From assembly GCA_003210285.1 (NCBI GenBank), contig QCVS01000002.1:62001-126000 (forward strand): DNA of 64,000 nt, read 5' to 3'. A program made the position numbers and the translations under genes. Position 1 is the first letter of the stretch. Every line of letters begins with the position of its first letter. Below the pieces are notes generated by a model, which was given only the letters and a program-made list of their open reading frames with translations, was not told where the DNA came from and searched no databases. Shown one piece after another: positions 1 to 6,992 of this stretch. This DNA is from Prochlorococcus sp. AG-686-J21 (GTDB taxonomy: Bacteria; Cyanobacteriota; Cyanobacteriia; PCC-6307; Cyanobiaceae).

Positions 1-66
1 TGCAAATGTTGTAGATGCAAATGCAAATAGAGATGAGGTTAATAAAACCCTTTTGAATATATTCAA
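1..66 (-). CDS. 5' end of exported protein, truncated by window edge (signal peptide LNIFKRVLLTSSLFAFASTTFA, TTG start)
   Basis: Reverse-strand open frame with basic n-region, hydrophobic core and AxA-like end; lies downstream of the ABC uptake genes on the same strand. Confidence 0.5.
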   Translation of the reverse strand, partial: MNIFKRVLLTSSLFAFASTTFA

Positions 67-266
67 GTGTGTCCTCACACAATAGATTCCTAAATATTAT
101 TAATATCAACAAAAAATTAAATCTTAATTATTCTGAAATAAGCTTGTTTTTGGTAACAAATAGTACCTTTAAAAATTTGGAATACCATAGTGTATATTCC
201 TTTCAAATAATATGTAACTTTTAAAAATAATAAAGGATAATATTTTACATCTAATTTTTTGCAAAA

Positions 267-1040
267 TTAATTTATTGCATAAACTTGCTTGCCATATGGA
301 GTATCTGAAACTAAAACATTTACATCAAAAATATCTTTAATTTTTTTCTCACTAATTATTTCATGACAGGGTCCATAACCTAAACTTCTTCCATTTTTTA
401 AAGCTAAAATTTTTTCTGCATATCTAGCAGTAAGATTTAAATCATGAAGAATCGTGATAATAGAAATATCTTTTTTTTCTTTAAGCTTTTTTATTATCTC
501 TAGAAATTTTATTTGGTATTTTAAATCTAAGGCATTTGTGGGCTCGTCCAGAATAAGAATTTCAGGGTCTTGAGCTAAAGCTAAAGCTAAATATGCTCTC
601 TGCCGCTGGCCTCCAGATATTTGAGTTATGAGAGTATCTTTGAAATCATACATATCTACTAAATTTAGTGCTTCATTAATTTTTTTTTTATCAGTTTTAT
701 TTAAATCAAATTCCCAAAAATTTTTATAGGGTGATCTACCTAGAGCAACTAACTCCTTAACAGTAACGTTCATGTTGGAATTAAATTGTTGAGGTAAAAA
801 GGAAATAGTTTGCGAAATTATTTTGTTTGTAAATCTTTTAATATCTTTTCCTTTTAAATAAAGACTTCCTTGGAAAGGTTTTATAATCCTACATATCCCT
901 TTAATTAGAGTTGATTTTCCTGCTCCGTTGGGACCTATTACTCCTAACCATTCACCAGATTTTACTGATAAATCAATTGACTTAATAATAAAATCATTTG
1001 TATAACCTGTAGAGAAATTTTCTAGTTTGAGATTTTCCAT
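267..1040 (-). CDS. FecE/FhuC/BtuD-type ABC transporter ATP-binding protein
   Basis: Walker A GPNGAGKST, signature ISGGQRQRAYLALALAQDPEILILDEPTNALD. Confidence 0.9.
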   Translation of the reverse strand: MENLKLENFSTGYTNDFIIKSIDLSVKSGEWLGVIGPNGAGKSTLIKGICRIIKPFQGSLYLKGKDIKRFTNKIISQTISFLPQQFNSNMNVTVKELVALGRSPYKNFWEFDLNKTDKKKINEALNLVDMYDFKDTLITQISGGQRQRAYLALALAQDPEILILDEPTNALDLKYQIKFLEIIKKLKEKKDISIITILHDLNLTARYAEKILALKNGRSLGYGPCHEIISEKKIKDIFDVNVLVSDTPYGKQVYAIN

Positions 1041-2032
1041 TACTTCTTATAATTTGTATTGTTGTAAAGAATAATCATAAATACTGGTGCACCCAATAGT
1101 GCGGTGACAATACCTACTGGAATTTCAATTGGCCCCAATCTTGAAATTAGGTCCGCACTACTTAAGGTTAATGCTCCTATAAGAGCGGAGAAAGGAAGTA
1201 TATATTTAAAGTCATTACCAATTAATAATCTTGAGAAATGAGGCACAATTAAACCTATAAAACCAATCAATCCTCCAATACTTACAGCGCAAGCCGCTAA
1301 TAAAGTAGCAATAGCTCCTATTAAACATCTTGATCGAAAAAGAGACGTTCCAAGACTTACAGACAATTCATCACCTAAACTTAATAAATTTAATTGTCGA
1401 TATAAAAATAGGCCAATAAATAATGCTAGCAAAATAGGCAAAGCCGTAAATTTAATTTCTTGCCAACCTCTCGCATTCAAACTACCAATAAGCCAATTCA
1501 AGGCTGCTTGAATTCTTCCATCCTCAGCTTGCAATAATAAAGTCGCCTGTATGGCTCCAAATAAACTGCTTATAGCAACCCCGCCTAAGACTAATCTCTC
1601 AACAATAATTTTATTGCCATCTTTAGATAAAACAAAAACTATTAATGTTGTCAAGATTGCTCCTATCCAAGCGGCAAAAGGTATAAAGGTTTGGATTAAA
1701 CCAAAACTAATAAAAAAAACTATTACTAATCCTGATCCTGCAGATATTCCTAATAAATATGGACTTGCCAAACCATTCCTAAGCATTCCCTGTAAAAGAG
1801 CACCTGACATACCCAGAGAAGAACCAACTAATAAAGAAGCAATTAATCTAGGTAATCTAAGTTCCCAAATAATAGTTTGATTAATTTGATCCCCTTTTTG
1901 AAAAATTGCAAGCCATATATCTTTATTGGGAATAAAAACTGAACCTTTAGCTAATGAAAATATAGAAATAATTATTAAAAGGGCAATAACTATTGATAAA
2001 GAAAATAAAAATCTCGTTTTAAATAATTTAAT
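1040..2032 (-). CDS. FecCD-family ABC transporter permease; frame extends upstream of the track's ATG at 1810
   Basis: LPRLIASLLVGSSLGMSGALLQGMLRNGLASPYLLGISAGSGL is a FecCD motif and starts upstream of 1810; ATT at 2032-2030 preceded by GAGGTGA with 6-nt spacing. Confidence 0.75.
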   Translation of the reverse strand: MKLFKTRFLFSLSIVIALLIIISIFSLAKGSVFIPNKDIWLAIFQKGDQINQTIIWELRLPRLIASLLVGSSLGMSGALLQGMLRNGLASPYLLGISAGSGLVIVFFISFGLIQTFIPFAAWIGAILTTLIVFVLSKDGNKIIVERLVLGGVAISSLFGAIQATLLLQAEDGRIQAALNWLIGSLNARGWQEIKFTALPILLALFIGLFLYRQLNLLSLGDELSVSLGTSLFRSRCLIGAIATLLAACAVSIGGLIGFIGLIVPHFSRLLIGNDFKYILPFSALIGALTLSSADLISRLGPIEIPVGIVTALLGAPVFMIILYNNTNYKK

Positions 2033-3732: not shown

Positions 3733-4056
3733 TTACATATTTTTAATTGGTGCTCCAATACATAGCTGGTTAAATTCATTCCACACTGGACCATAGCGAC
3801 CTTCATCTATTTGGCTTCTCTCGCTAGGATTGGAGCTAACTGAGCTCCCAGCATTTTTTTCAATTACCCATATTTGTGGATTTGGGGGAACAAATTCATA
3901 CTGTAAAAGTAGATAAGATGTCCAACCTTGGTTCCCATGAACATTGCAGTATTGAGCAGGTATAAGAGAGCTACCTGTTACTGATCTAGTATTAATTAAT
4001 GATATACAAGTTAAGAAAGTGAAGATAAATAGCCTGAAATTAGTGATTAACTTCAT
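3733..4056 (-). CDS. Small secreted protein, copy 1 of tandem pair
   Basis: Signal peptide MKLITNFRLFIFTFLTCISL; shares YCNVHGNQGWTSYL, SSVSSNPSER, EFNQLCIGAPIK with next ORF. Confidence 0.7.
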   Translation of the reverse strand: MKLITNFRLFIFTFLTCISLINTRSVTGSSLIPAQYCNVHGNQGWTSYLLLQYEFVPPNPQIWVIEKNAGSSVSSNPSERSQIDEGRYGPVWNEFNQLCIGAPIKNM

Positions 4057-4179: not shown

Positions 4180-4491
4180 CTACTTTTTATATTTTTTTAT
4201 TGGAGCTCCAATACAAAGCTGGTTAAATTCTTTCCAACCCTCTTTAGCTATTTGGGTTCTCTCGCTAGGATTGGAGCTAACTGAGCTCCCTTCGTTCTTT
4301 TCAATAATCCATCTTGCTTTAGAACCATATCCAGTCTCTAAAATTAGATAAGATGTCCAACCTTGGTTCCCATGAACATTGCAATATTCCAAGGGATAAG
4401 GAGTTCTACCCATTACTGATTTAGTATTAAATAATGATATACAAGTTAAGAAAGTGAAGATAAATAGCCTGAAATTAGTGATTAACTTCAT
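4180..4491 (-). CDS. Small secreted protein, copy 2 of tandem pair
   Basis: Paralog of 3733..4056 with near-identical leader and C-terminus. Confidence 0.7.
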   Translation of the reverse strand: MKLITNFRLFIFTFLTCISLFNTKSVMGRTPYPLEYCNVHGNQGWTSYLILETGYGSKARWIIEKNEGSSVSSNPSERTQIAKEGWKEFNQLCIGAPIKKYKK

Positions 4492-4561: not shown

Positions 4562-4597
4562 GATTCTATTTTCCCCTTATTTTAGATCGATTATCAA
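4562..4597 (+). repeat. Imperfect 36-bp direct repeat, copy B (exact core at 4573-4590)
   Basis: 29/36 identities with 2235..2270. Confidence 0.75.
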
Positions 4598-4600
4598 AAA

Positions 4601-4617
4601 TGCACCTAATTTTGCAC
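4601..4617 (+). repeat. TGCAC-N7-TGCAC motif pair at distal end of integrase module
   Basis: TGCACCTAATTTTGCAC; same layout as the reverse complement of 6809..6825. Confidence 0.6.
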
Positions 4618-4670
4618 CTTTTGTTTTTAAATAATCAGAACTTCATAAGCTATTACTAAGATTTAATGAT

Positions 4671-5030
4671 TTAATTCACCTGCATACTAGGCAGGTGACG
4701 TTCATCTTTAGGTACAATATGCATGGATAAAGCATTAATGACCTCTATGTTTTTAGGGGTTATTTTTTTTTGTTCCTTTATGATTTTTTTGGCAAATTGG
4801 AAGTCCGCATATTTGGAAAATCCTTTTCTTCGAGTGGCTAGAGATTTCTTACAACGTTCTAAATCCCATCTAATAGGGCTATTGTCATAAGCACCAAAAA
4901 ACCAATCTTTATCTTGAATTAGAAAACCGCCTTCTAAATCTCGATAACGTCTTAGGGTCTTAGTTGATACCCCAAGAATTGCGGCCGTATTTGCTGTTCC
5001 CAACAAATTAGGCGTATTAAGTTGTTCCAC
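4671..5030 (-). CDS. Helix-turn-helix (MerR/AlpA-like) DNA-binding protein, possible excisionase or regulator
   Basis: LLGTANTAAILGVSTKTLRRYRDLEGGFLI HTH pattern; in integrase module. Confidence 0.55.
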   Translation of the reverse strand: MEQLNTPNLLGTANTAAILGVSTKTLRRYRDLEGGFLIQDKDWFFGAYDNSPIRWDLERCKKSLATRRKGFSKYADFQFAKKIIKEQKKITPKNIEVINALSMHIVPKDERHLPSMQVN

Positions 5031-5051
5031 TTAAATGGATTGATATTCTTA

Positions 5052-5297
5052 TTACGCTATCTTCCTTAAATGTCTAGGAAATTTAAAATCCTCTGCATTT
5101 ATTAAACCTTGCTCCTTTGCTTTTAAAAAATCTTCAGCAAGTTTTTCTGAAGCCGCCCTTTGTTCAAAAGGTTTAACATCAGGATTTTTGCCATTTGGAA
5201 AAACTGGATTTTTAGACCCATTACCTAACGCCTTTTTTGGAAGCGTTACGACTTTTCCATTAATTTTTAAAAATTTATTAGGTTTCTTTTTAGGCAT
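5052..5297 (-). CDS. Hypothetical basic protein, 81 aa
   Basis: Complete ORF, overlaps upstream small ORF by 8 nt. Confidence 0.55.
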   Translation of the reverse strand: MPKKKPNKFLKINGKVVTLPKKALGNGSKNPVFPNGKNPDVKPFEQRAASEKLAEDFLKAKEQGLINAEDFKFPRHLRKIA

Positions 5298-5427
5298 GAT
5301 GCGAATAAGCGTTAACCAGAATTGCAGACAACATTTCTGTGTTAACTGGGATCAATCCACCAATCTCAATCGCCGAGTCGGTAGTCCCCTTCGCAACACA
5401 AAAGCAATAGTGTTGGATTTCCTTCAT
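5290..5427 (-). CDS. Hypothetical 45-aa protein (MKEIQHYCFCVAKGTTDSAIEIGGLIPVNTEMLSAILVNAYSHHA); frame remains open upstream
   Basis: Open frame between integrase and 81-aa gene; stop overlaps start of next gene; less AT-rich than true spacers; not in supplied track on this strand. Confidence 0.45.
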   Translation of the reverse strand: MKEIQHYCFCVAKGTTDSAIEIGGLIPVNTEMLSAILVNAYSHHA

Positions 5428-5489
5428 AGGTCGGAGCAAGCTCCTAAACCTATCGCCAGAAATCAGTTATTAGTAAGGTAGCCGTATAT

Positions 5490-6782
5490 TCATGTACGTG
5501 CAAGTACGTACTTTTCTGCATTATTTTTATTAGCTTCTTCAATACGTTTTTTGTTCTCAGCATTGTTTGACCACTTGCCGTAATATTTGAGATGCGTGTC
5601 TAAATTGTGGCCAAGTAAATCTGCCAAGACTCTATAAGGAATAGCTGGAACAGTTTCCATACTTCCACGCCAAGCAAAAGAATGACGAAAACTATACGGC
5701 ACAAGATTTGAATATTTTGTTTTTAATTCTTTCCAGAACCAAAATCTATTTATCATTTTTCCGAATCTTTCTCCGATTTCTTTGTAGCCTTTTTCATCAT
5801 CTGATTTTGCAATAGCTCTAAGAATTGGGTCAGGAAATTTTATTTTTCCAGACTCTAAATCAGCAACAATTTCTTTTCCTAAATTTGGAAGATTTGGTAA
5901 ATCTAAAGGCTCAACAATTCTTGTATGCGGTTCTTCAAGCATTGTTTTTACGTTTTGTTTTAACGTTGTAATTTCAACTTTTCCATCTTTAATTTTCATA
6001 TTTGCAATCTCTGAAATCCTTATTCCATAGACCCCTGAGAGTACGCATATTGCCCTTAGACCATGCTTATTTTCTCTCTTTAATGCTTCTAATAACATCT
6101 CAAAATCAGCCGTTAAAATAGGCTCTCTTGTTCTATTTTTCTTCCTACCTTTTGGAACAGCACCAACATATTTTGCATATTGTTTTGCAGTTAATGGCAA
6201 CCATTCAACGCCCAAATATTTTTTCTCTAATACAGCCCAATTTAAAAATGCTCTTAAATCTCCCATGTTTCTTTTTCTACCTTCTCCCCCTTTTGGCATG
6301 TTCCTATCAAAAAATAAATCTGCATAATTTTTGAATAATTGTTCTGCATTTCTTGGTAGTGGTTTTGTATTTAAAGCTTGCAAAGTTCTATCTAATCTTT
6401 TCTTCAAATCTCGCTTTGTTGTATCTCTTCTATTGCCACGTTCTTCATTAATAAATTCTTCTTTTAGTGCAAACCAATTAATTTCATTTTTACCATTTTT
6501 ATTTAATTTCCCCCCACTAATTAATTCATAAGCTTTGACTAAATCAACGCTTCTTTCATTCATTAAATCTGATAGTTCAACAACAAGATTTGTAATTTCA
6601 TTATTGTTTTCAGCATGCCAATCTAAGTCGGTTAAAACTGTTGTTCTTTGCCCTGTAGAAAATCTATAAACAACTTTTGTTTTTACCTTATTTTGTTTTT
6701 CTATGCCTTGAACAGACCAGCCAAAGCCAAGTTTTGATTTGATTGATTTTCTTGTGATATCAACCCAAGTTAAAGTTTTCAT
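5490..6782 (-). CDS. Tyrosine recombinase / integrase
   Basis: Box I GVYGIRISEIANM; PYSFRHSFAWRG (box II with Tyr in the usual His position); LLGHNLDTHLKYYGKW catalytic Tyr region; adjacent to tRNA 3' end. Confidence 0.9.
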   Translation of the reverse strand: MKTLTWVDITRKSIKSKLGFGWSVQGIEKQNKVKTKVVYRFSTGQRTTVLTDLDWHAENNNEITNLVVELSDLMNERSVDLVKAYELISGGKLNKNGKNEINWFALKEEFINEERGNRRDTTKRDLKKRLDRTLQALNTKPLPRNAEQLFKNYADLFFDRNMPKGGEGRKRNMGDLRAFLNWAVLEKKYLGVEWLPLTAKQYAKYVGAVPKGRKKNRTREPILTADFEMLLEALKRENKHGLRAICVLSGVYGIRISEIANMKIKDGKVEITTLKQNVKTMLEEPHTRIVEPLDLPNLPNLGKEIVADLESGKIKFPDPILRAIAKSDDEKGYKEIGERFGKMINRFWFWKELKTKYSNLVPYSFRHSFAWRGSMETVPAIPYRVLADLLGHNLDTHLKYYGKWSNNAENKKRIEEANKNNAEKYVLART

Positions 6783-6808
6783 TTCTGCAACAAATAAAAT
6801 TCTTATAA

Positions 6809-6825
6809 GTGCATTTTAGGGTGCA
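6809..6825 (-). repeat. TGCAC-N7-TGCAC motif pair upstream of integrase (minus strand TGCACCCTAAAATGCAC)
   Basis: Plus strand GTGCATTTTAGGGTGCA. Confidence 0.6.
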
Positions 6826-6919
6826 GAATTGCTTAAACAAGCTTGGACAAGTACGTACAAAAGTTATGTTATTACTAAACGCCGTCTAAAAACTATTGGT
6901 ATGACTGAAAAAAATTAAG

Positions 6920-6992
6920 TGGAGCCATGCGGATTTGAACCGCAGACCCCCTGCATGCCATGCAGGTGCTCTACCAGCTGAGCTATGGCCCC
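6920..6992 (-). tRNA. tRNA-Ala (anticodon GGC)
   Basis: GGGGCCATAGCTCAGCTGGTAGAGC...CCTGCATGGCATGCAGG...GGTTCAAATCC...TGGCTCCA cloverleaf. Confidence 0.97.

Follow-up and report, generated by a model that had tools for sequence, protein, structure and literature searches.

A ~13-kb tycheposon-like element in Prochlorococcus whose integrase family appears to match one residue to one docking-site base

Genes and features of the locus

The window analyzed here is a 64-kb stretch of DNA from a Prochlorococcus-genus genome (G000:C2:62001-126000). Minus-strand genes for an integrase and its companions lie beside a tRNA-Ala gene in its first 7 kb, together with the following features.

1–78, minus strand: first codons of a TonB-dependent receptor gene (794 aa in full), the rest lying left of the window (G000:C2:59694-62078)
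267–1040, minus strand: ABC ATPase, FecE/heme type (238 bits with the NCBIfam FecE model, whose cut-off is higher)
1040–1810, minus strand: BtuC/FecCD-type ABC permease (best NCBIfam match 199 bits, below cut-offs)
4601–4617, plus strand: internal inverted arm-type pair TGCACCTAATTTTGCAC, identical in G066:C56:1880-1896
4671–5030, minus strand: HTH/excisionase-like gene joined to the opening codons of a deleted primase-like gene, 119 aa (junction from comparison with G066 and G017)
4679–4695, no strand: core-like inverted repeat CCTGC-ATACTAG-GCAGG, a deletion scar, 62 nt from the 4601 pair
5052–5297, minus strand: conserved small ORF of the integrase operon, 81 aa (counterparts of 87 aa in G066 and 63 aa in G017)
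5490–6782, minus strand: tyrosine integrase, 430 aa (phrog_1 integrase, E 1.2e-16)
6809–6825, minus strand: integrase-proximal arm-type pair TGCACCCTAAAATGCAC, at the same position upstream of related integrases
6919–6992, minus strand: tRNA-Ala(GGC), the target gene and attL (ARAGORN)
6951–6965, no strand: att core, the anticodon stem-loop inverted repeat CTGCA-N5-TGCAG, with a second copy at G000:C2:55918-55932

A first-pass annotation had described this block as four genes abutting tRNA-Ala(GGC). The tRNA gene, the 81-aa ORF and the tyrosine recombinase are all borne out, the last with R255, K275, R366, H392 and Y401 conserved in 43 relatives. In the related elements G017 and G066, nothing corresponding to the proposed 45-aa ORF lies between integrase and small ORF. 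An ORF does occupy the place of the proposed HTH protein, but its 119 aa are an HTH gene joined by deletion to the start of a primase-like gene; both relatives carry that gene intact. Primase and helicase genes are present in G066 and G017 and absent from the window element, whose gene set is a reduced form of the order integrase, small ORF, HTH, primase, helicase. The HTH gene has weak matches to the excisionase families phrog_66 and phrog_2907 (E 3.4e-4 for an intact relative, L036), making its product a candidate recombination directionality factor.

In an AlphaFold2 model of the integrase (pLDDT 88.9), the predicted N-terminal domain consists of a helix (residues 5–18) and three strands (22–29, 32–40 and 46–54). 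Full-length lambda Int is the best PDB match (1z1b, E 2.4e-5); overall TM-scores against lambda Int structures are low because of domain placement. The integrase is thus predicted to be lambda-Int-like in build, with an arm-binding N-terminal domain preceding the core-binding and catalytic domains. A search of viral_contigs with the window integrase alone retrieved no relatives, and one with the integrase alignment retrieved 11 distant loci, which were kept out of further analysis.

Element boundaries and cargo

The tRNA-Ala gene in the window is a hybrid of a chromosomal 5′ half and an element-derived 3′ half. A 21-bp piece of tRNA-Ala recurs outside the window (G000:C2:55912-55932), within a complete 3′ half, attR, at G000:C2:55887-55932, ~6.1 kb left of the window start; several T-arm differences separate this 3′ half from the one now in the tRNA gene. 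Together, the window 5′ half and the attR 3′ half make up the genus-standard tRNA-Ala, which is intact in 22 other loci, and the hybrid was found in no loci but the copies of the window and of the G017 element. These hybrid halves suggest a crossover at the anticodon stem-loop, with the 3′ half of the tRNA supplied by the element. Because the two separated halves restore the standard gene, the element on this sequence evidence spans ~13.0 kb, from about −6.1 kb to 6965 in window coordinates, inserted in the tRNA-Ala(GGC) anticodon stem-loop. We relied on the hybrid-tRNA argument because no standing empty site was found: a search through the flanking export-protein gene gave relatives of at most 48% identity, with no tRNA in the 1.5 kb retrieved. 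A DNA search of phage records returned matches to the tRNA-Ala alone.

The earlier picture of a compact 2.4-kb module bracketed by two motif pairs therefore does not hold, its ends being replaced by the anticodon stem-loop (~6951–6965) and G000:C2:55887-55932. One of the two pairs, at 6809–6825, does lie at an element end; the 4601 pair is internal, and the second end lies 10.6 kb beyond it, outside the window. There, beside the tRNA repeat, is a distal pair, TGCACTTATTTCTGCAC (G000:C2:55996-56012), in the same (direct) orientation as the 6809–6825 pair. The proposal of a tycheposon-like, tRNA-targeting element fits the tyrosine recombinase beside the tRNA and the tRNA fragment at the far end. 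Elements in Thr(GGT), Gly(GCC) and other Ala tRNA genes have a common layout, namely tRNA, ~70–130 bp, pair and integrase at one end and pair, ~60–75 bp and tRNA 3′ part at the other, and the att core is also the common start of their repeat.

Two further arrangements at tRNA-Ala were observed. Sister integrases L005–L009 (in G106, G142, G043, G128 and G123) lie on the 5′ side of the gene, so their elements would supply the 5′ half of the tRNA; since the anticodon core is nearly palindromic, insertion in both orientations may be possible. At G105:C25 (L031), a single tRNA-Ala has an integrase gene on either side; the pairs there are TGCTC and TGCGC, and the far end carries TGCAC, an arrangement that probably represents stacked or recombined elements.

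Window positions 1–1980 together with G000:C2:56985-62078 hold a complete TonB-type uptake cluster. The receptor exceeds the NCBIfam heme/hemoglobin receptor cut-off (328.5 versus 323.75 bits), and the permease reading frame stays open further upstream than the ATG at 1810. To the left of the receptor are genes for an IsdE-like substrate-binding protein, TonB, and ExbB/TolQ-like and ExbD/TolR-like proteins, followed by attR. We infer that this cargo serves TonB-type uptake of iron, probably as heme; siderophore uptake, our first guess, was dropped since the NCBIfam cut-offs favor a heme-type receptor. Heme uptake would be a notable Prochlorococcus cargo. Near attR, an 89-aa ORF matches phrog_34910 (function unknown) and a longer G017 relative. 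Related phrog_34910 ORFs (L086:10194-10463 and L036:6928-7323) lie near the distal end of both their elements, the one in the window element being shortened, and are a possible satellite hallmark gene. Two adjacent, similar genes for small secreted proteins (MKLITNFRLFIFTFLTCISL...) with no clear family match occupy 3733–4056 and 4180–4491, an apparent tandem duplication.

Putative arm-type pairs at both ends of most elements tested

The two exact TGCAC-N7-TGCAC pairs named in the first-pass annotation are the only copies in the 64 kb, against 0.01 expected. We used other spacer lengths as the control, because the 5-mer of a reversed pattern holds a CpG and would make that comparison unfair. 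Across 682 kb of related loci, the 7-nt spacer alone is enriched, with 64 same-letter TGCxC pairs compared to 0–3 for each other spacer from 0 to 15. Exact repeats of at least 7 nt upstream of the integrase have a period of 10, 11 or 12 in 17, 19 and 23, respectively, of 66 integrase clusters (70% identity; not fully independent of one another). Other periods tested occur in 0–3 clusters, and shuffles give ~0.4–0.5 for periods 11 and 12. Genus-wide counts of TGCTC and TGCCC patterns were set aside, as conserved genes dominate them. Such counts are also raised by TGCACAAGCTTATGCAC, a stretch of conserved chromosome rather than an element site, found near 11.8 kb in many genomes of the genus (for example, G001:C1:11824).

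Across Cyanobiaceae, genes of this integrase family have paired repeats with a period of 10–12 upstream, and most elements tested have them again at the distal end. The annotation's reading of the pairs as arm-type integrase sites, which it had tied to their presence beside related integrases, is supported because pairs lie upstream of most of these genes; we retain it as putative. The most frequent half-site is TGCxC, other main-clade forms being CGCAC, AGCxC, TGCGTAC and TTxxCAC. Among ~20 elements with a downstream tRNA-end repeat, most repeat the proximal 6-mer and its period 37–102 nt before that repeat, and the 6-mers matched at both ends include unrelated half-sites (TGCACT, TGCTCT, CGCACT, GCTCTA, CTGAGTGACCA, GACATC, TTCGTA and TAGCTA). 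In the window element, the two ends share the 5-mer TGCAC and no 6-mer. A pair common to both ends was absent from some elements with a tRNA repeat (G105, G128, L128 and L133); in G105, the proximal pair is TGCTC and the distal one TGCAC.

A third half-site carrying the element's own letter lies within the start of the integrase coding sequence, in differing frames, in L054, L047, L108, L041, L048 and L045. As a general feature it was rejected: 7 of 43 clusters have it, against 1.07 expected, and in one of these it is 4 nt away from the pair, so it belongs to some lineages only.

One integrase residue tracks base 4 of the half-site

We compared base 4 of the half-site (x in TGCxC) with every integrase alignment column, masking that base during a heuristic half-site alignment. 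The strongest association was with column X, the residue that follows 'GW.V' in strand 1 of the N-terminal sheet (Gln25 in the window protein), with a mutual information of 1.34 and a z-score of 9.4, first of all integrase columns (next, 6.3). Arg and Lys go with G, Asn and Gln with A, Ser, Ile and Thr with T and Glu with C. Arg or Lys accompanies G in 13 of 14 G clusters (cluster-level Fisher test, P = 8e-7), and the same test gives 6e-5 for Asn/Gln with A, 4e-5 for Ser/Ile/Thr with T, 0.045 for Glu with C and 0.03 for Leu with A.

For a blind test, the rule for Asn/Gln, Arg, Ser/Ile and Glu was fixed, and Thr with T then added, before the non-Prochlorococcus integrases were retrieved. It predicted x in 23 of these 26 later integrases and in 12 of 14 clusters (permutation P = 0.0014). 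Among disjoint pairs of integrases, the residue differs in 90% of those with different bases (n = 31) and in 18% of those with the same base (n = 34), ranking column X first of 370 columns. The residue is kept in 3 of the 31 base-different pairs, where we suspect half-site misalignment. A natural switch separates L236 (Leu, A) from L241 (Arg, G), which share 92% C-terminal identity. The code has exceptions: Glu occurs with A in G106 and G142, and a period-10 GACTGCAC clade, which stood outside the blind test, keeps A with Gln, Glu or Ser at column X.

Arg with G, Asn or Gln with A, Glu with C and Ile with T are classical protein–DNA contacts. Among the relatives examined, one integrase residue appears to predict one docking-site base, and residue X, Gln25 in the window protein, probably touches base 4. 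This one-residue code may be new. The literature searched, which did not cover the original tycheposon paper, contained no report of it, and this counts as weak evidence of novelty.

Internal att-like sites and loss of the primase and helicase genes

The 4601 pair is inverted relative to both end pairs, and internal inverted pairs with matching letters are present in G066, G017, G240, G193 (two elements), G123, G011, G134 and G227. The core-like repeat lies 62 nt from the pair in the window and in the internal sites of G066 and G017, close to the distal attR spacing of 63. In Ala elements, the repeat is CCTGC-N7-GCAGG (TCTGC in G066) at 62 nt; in Thr elements, TCCCT-N5-AGGGA stands 61–62 nt from the internal pair, and its central bases differ from those of the tRNA. 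We rejected a role for the internal palindrome as a terminator, as no T-run follows it in the sequences compared.

A second internal site (a pair plus CTGCA-N5-TGCAG), in the same orientation, is located at the primase start in G066, G017, G105, G043, G128 and G123. Throughout the 682 kb, CTGCA-N5-TGCAG occurs in tRNA cores, internal sites and very few other places. The primase and helicase genes of G066 and G017 lie between two internal sites in direct orientation; in the window, these genes are gone, and the deletion junction falls at CACCTGC of the core-like repeat. This junction is compatible both with integrase action and with ordinary deletion at the 7-nt CACCTGC repeat. The internal att-like sites may be new and would be expected to bind the integrase. 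Caution on internal sites is called for by G066, whose integrase is of the TGCAC type but whose primase-start pair reads TGCGC.

Discussion

We think it highly probable, from sequence comparison, that the locus holds a 13-kb tycheposon-like element with an arm-docking integrase, a one-residue code and an internal att-like site. The catalytic domain of the integrase would act at the anticodon-loop core, while its N-terminal domain would dock on arm-type half-sites that occur as a pair next to each att core. Each half-site, TGCxC with a 12-nt period, would be read at x mainly by the residue after 'GW.V', so that Gln25 would read A. The 4601 pair and its core-like repeat would form an internal att-like site, the one hybrid site left after loss of the genes between two. 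The element is presumably still able to move.

A ~2.4-kb element with the two inverted pairs as its ends, as first annotated, would account for their placement around the block from integrase to HTH gene, and inverted internal pairs downstream of the integrase do occur in ~10 elements. It nevertheless seems hardly tenable, since the surroundings of 4601 lack a tRNA repeat, a distal pair with matching letters and a tRNA 3′ half lie together at G000:C2:55887-56012, elements with both ends have direct rather than inverted pairs, and the core-like repeat sits on the integrase side of the 4601 pair and not outside it. The pairs might instead be bound by the excisionase-like HTH protein as Xis-type sites that set the direction of excision; the HTH gene adjoins the integrase gene, and Xis proteins bind direct repeats. 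We regard this as unlikely because pairs are present at both ends and no other integrase column covaries with base 4 as strongly as one position in the N-terminal domain, which argues for the integrase as the probable ligand of the arm pairs, although the HTH protein may share that role. That covariation could in turn reflect inherited relatedness and not recognition, as integrases and sites descend together and other columns also show raised z-scores. The cluster-level permutation, the disjoint pairs across the tree, switches at 62–92% C-terminal identity and the fit to classical amino acid–base contacts make such an origin quite improbable.

The choice is much closer for the internal site, which may be an operator or attenuator at which bound integrase represses the adjacent operon without ever recombining, the primase and helicase genes having been lost by ordinary deletion at CACCTGC. 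Internal pairs immediately precede the next gene (a 64-aa gene or the start of a zinc-finger primase), the shared 7 nt suffice to explain the deletion, and the central bases of the internal site differ from the tRNA core, where tyrosine recombinases need homology. An operator would, however, not need a core-like inverted repeat at attR-like spacing, and the segment lost is bounded precisely on its other side by a second such site. We consider the arguments for and against this operator reading evenly balanced. A bolder extension of the att-like interpretation is that the primase and helicase genes form a cassette that the integrase can excise or exchange, so that an element's own integrase switches it between a self-replicating satellite and a cargo-only form, with the window as the product of one such event and differing half-site letters preventing cross-reaction of co-resident elements. 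This extension is speculative, and we rather doubt it.

Which sites an integrase can join depends on its arm-binding domain, and we know of no simple rule linking the sequence of such a domain to the sites that it reads. With a one-residue, one-base rule, element ends could be located from the integrase sequence, and the coexistence of many related elements in a single genome without cross-talk would be explained. The analysis also corrects how the element boundary is drawn, an inverted internal pair being easily mistaken for an end.

Arm-type integrase sites are already known. The integrase described here resembles lambda Int in its predicted fold and in having putative arm sites on both sides of the core. 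It differs from lambda Int and attP in that its sites are tandem half-sites, short and of highly variable sequence, in that a single residue tracks a single base, and in the additional att-like sites within the element. Integrases of the Tn916/Tn1549 type are similar in their arm-binding N-terminal domain with a three-stranded sheet, and they have direct-repeat arm sites near both ends. Those elements insert into AT-rich DNA with little specificity (PMC8138268, PMC5871717), whereas the integrases here target tRNA anticodon stem-loops. Picocyanobacterial tRNA-Phe/Cys integrases share the setting of Prochlorococcus/Synechococcus tRNA islands and a lambda-Int-like model, but they are tied to tRNA-Phe or tRNA-Cys and are reported as distinct from tycheposon integrases (PMC10187409). 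Tycheposons (Hackl et al. 2023, Cell), given as 4–200 kb in size in PMC10872708, have in common with the window element, as described second-hand there and in PMC10187409, their Prochlorococcus host, tRNA borders, tyrosine recombinase, nutrient cargo and size range. By that second-hand description, the element is of the tycheposon kind in its tRNA insertion, recombinase, ~13.0-kb size and nutrient cargo, and differs in having lost the primase and helicase genes.
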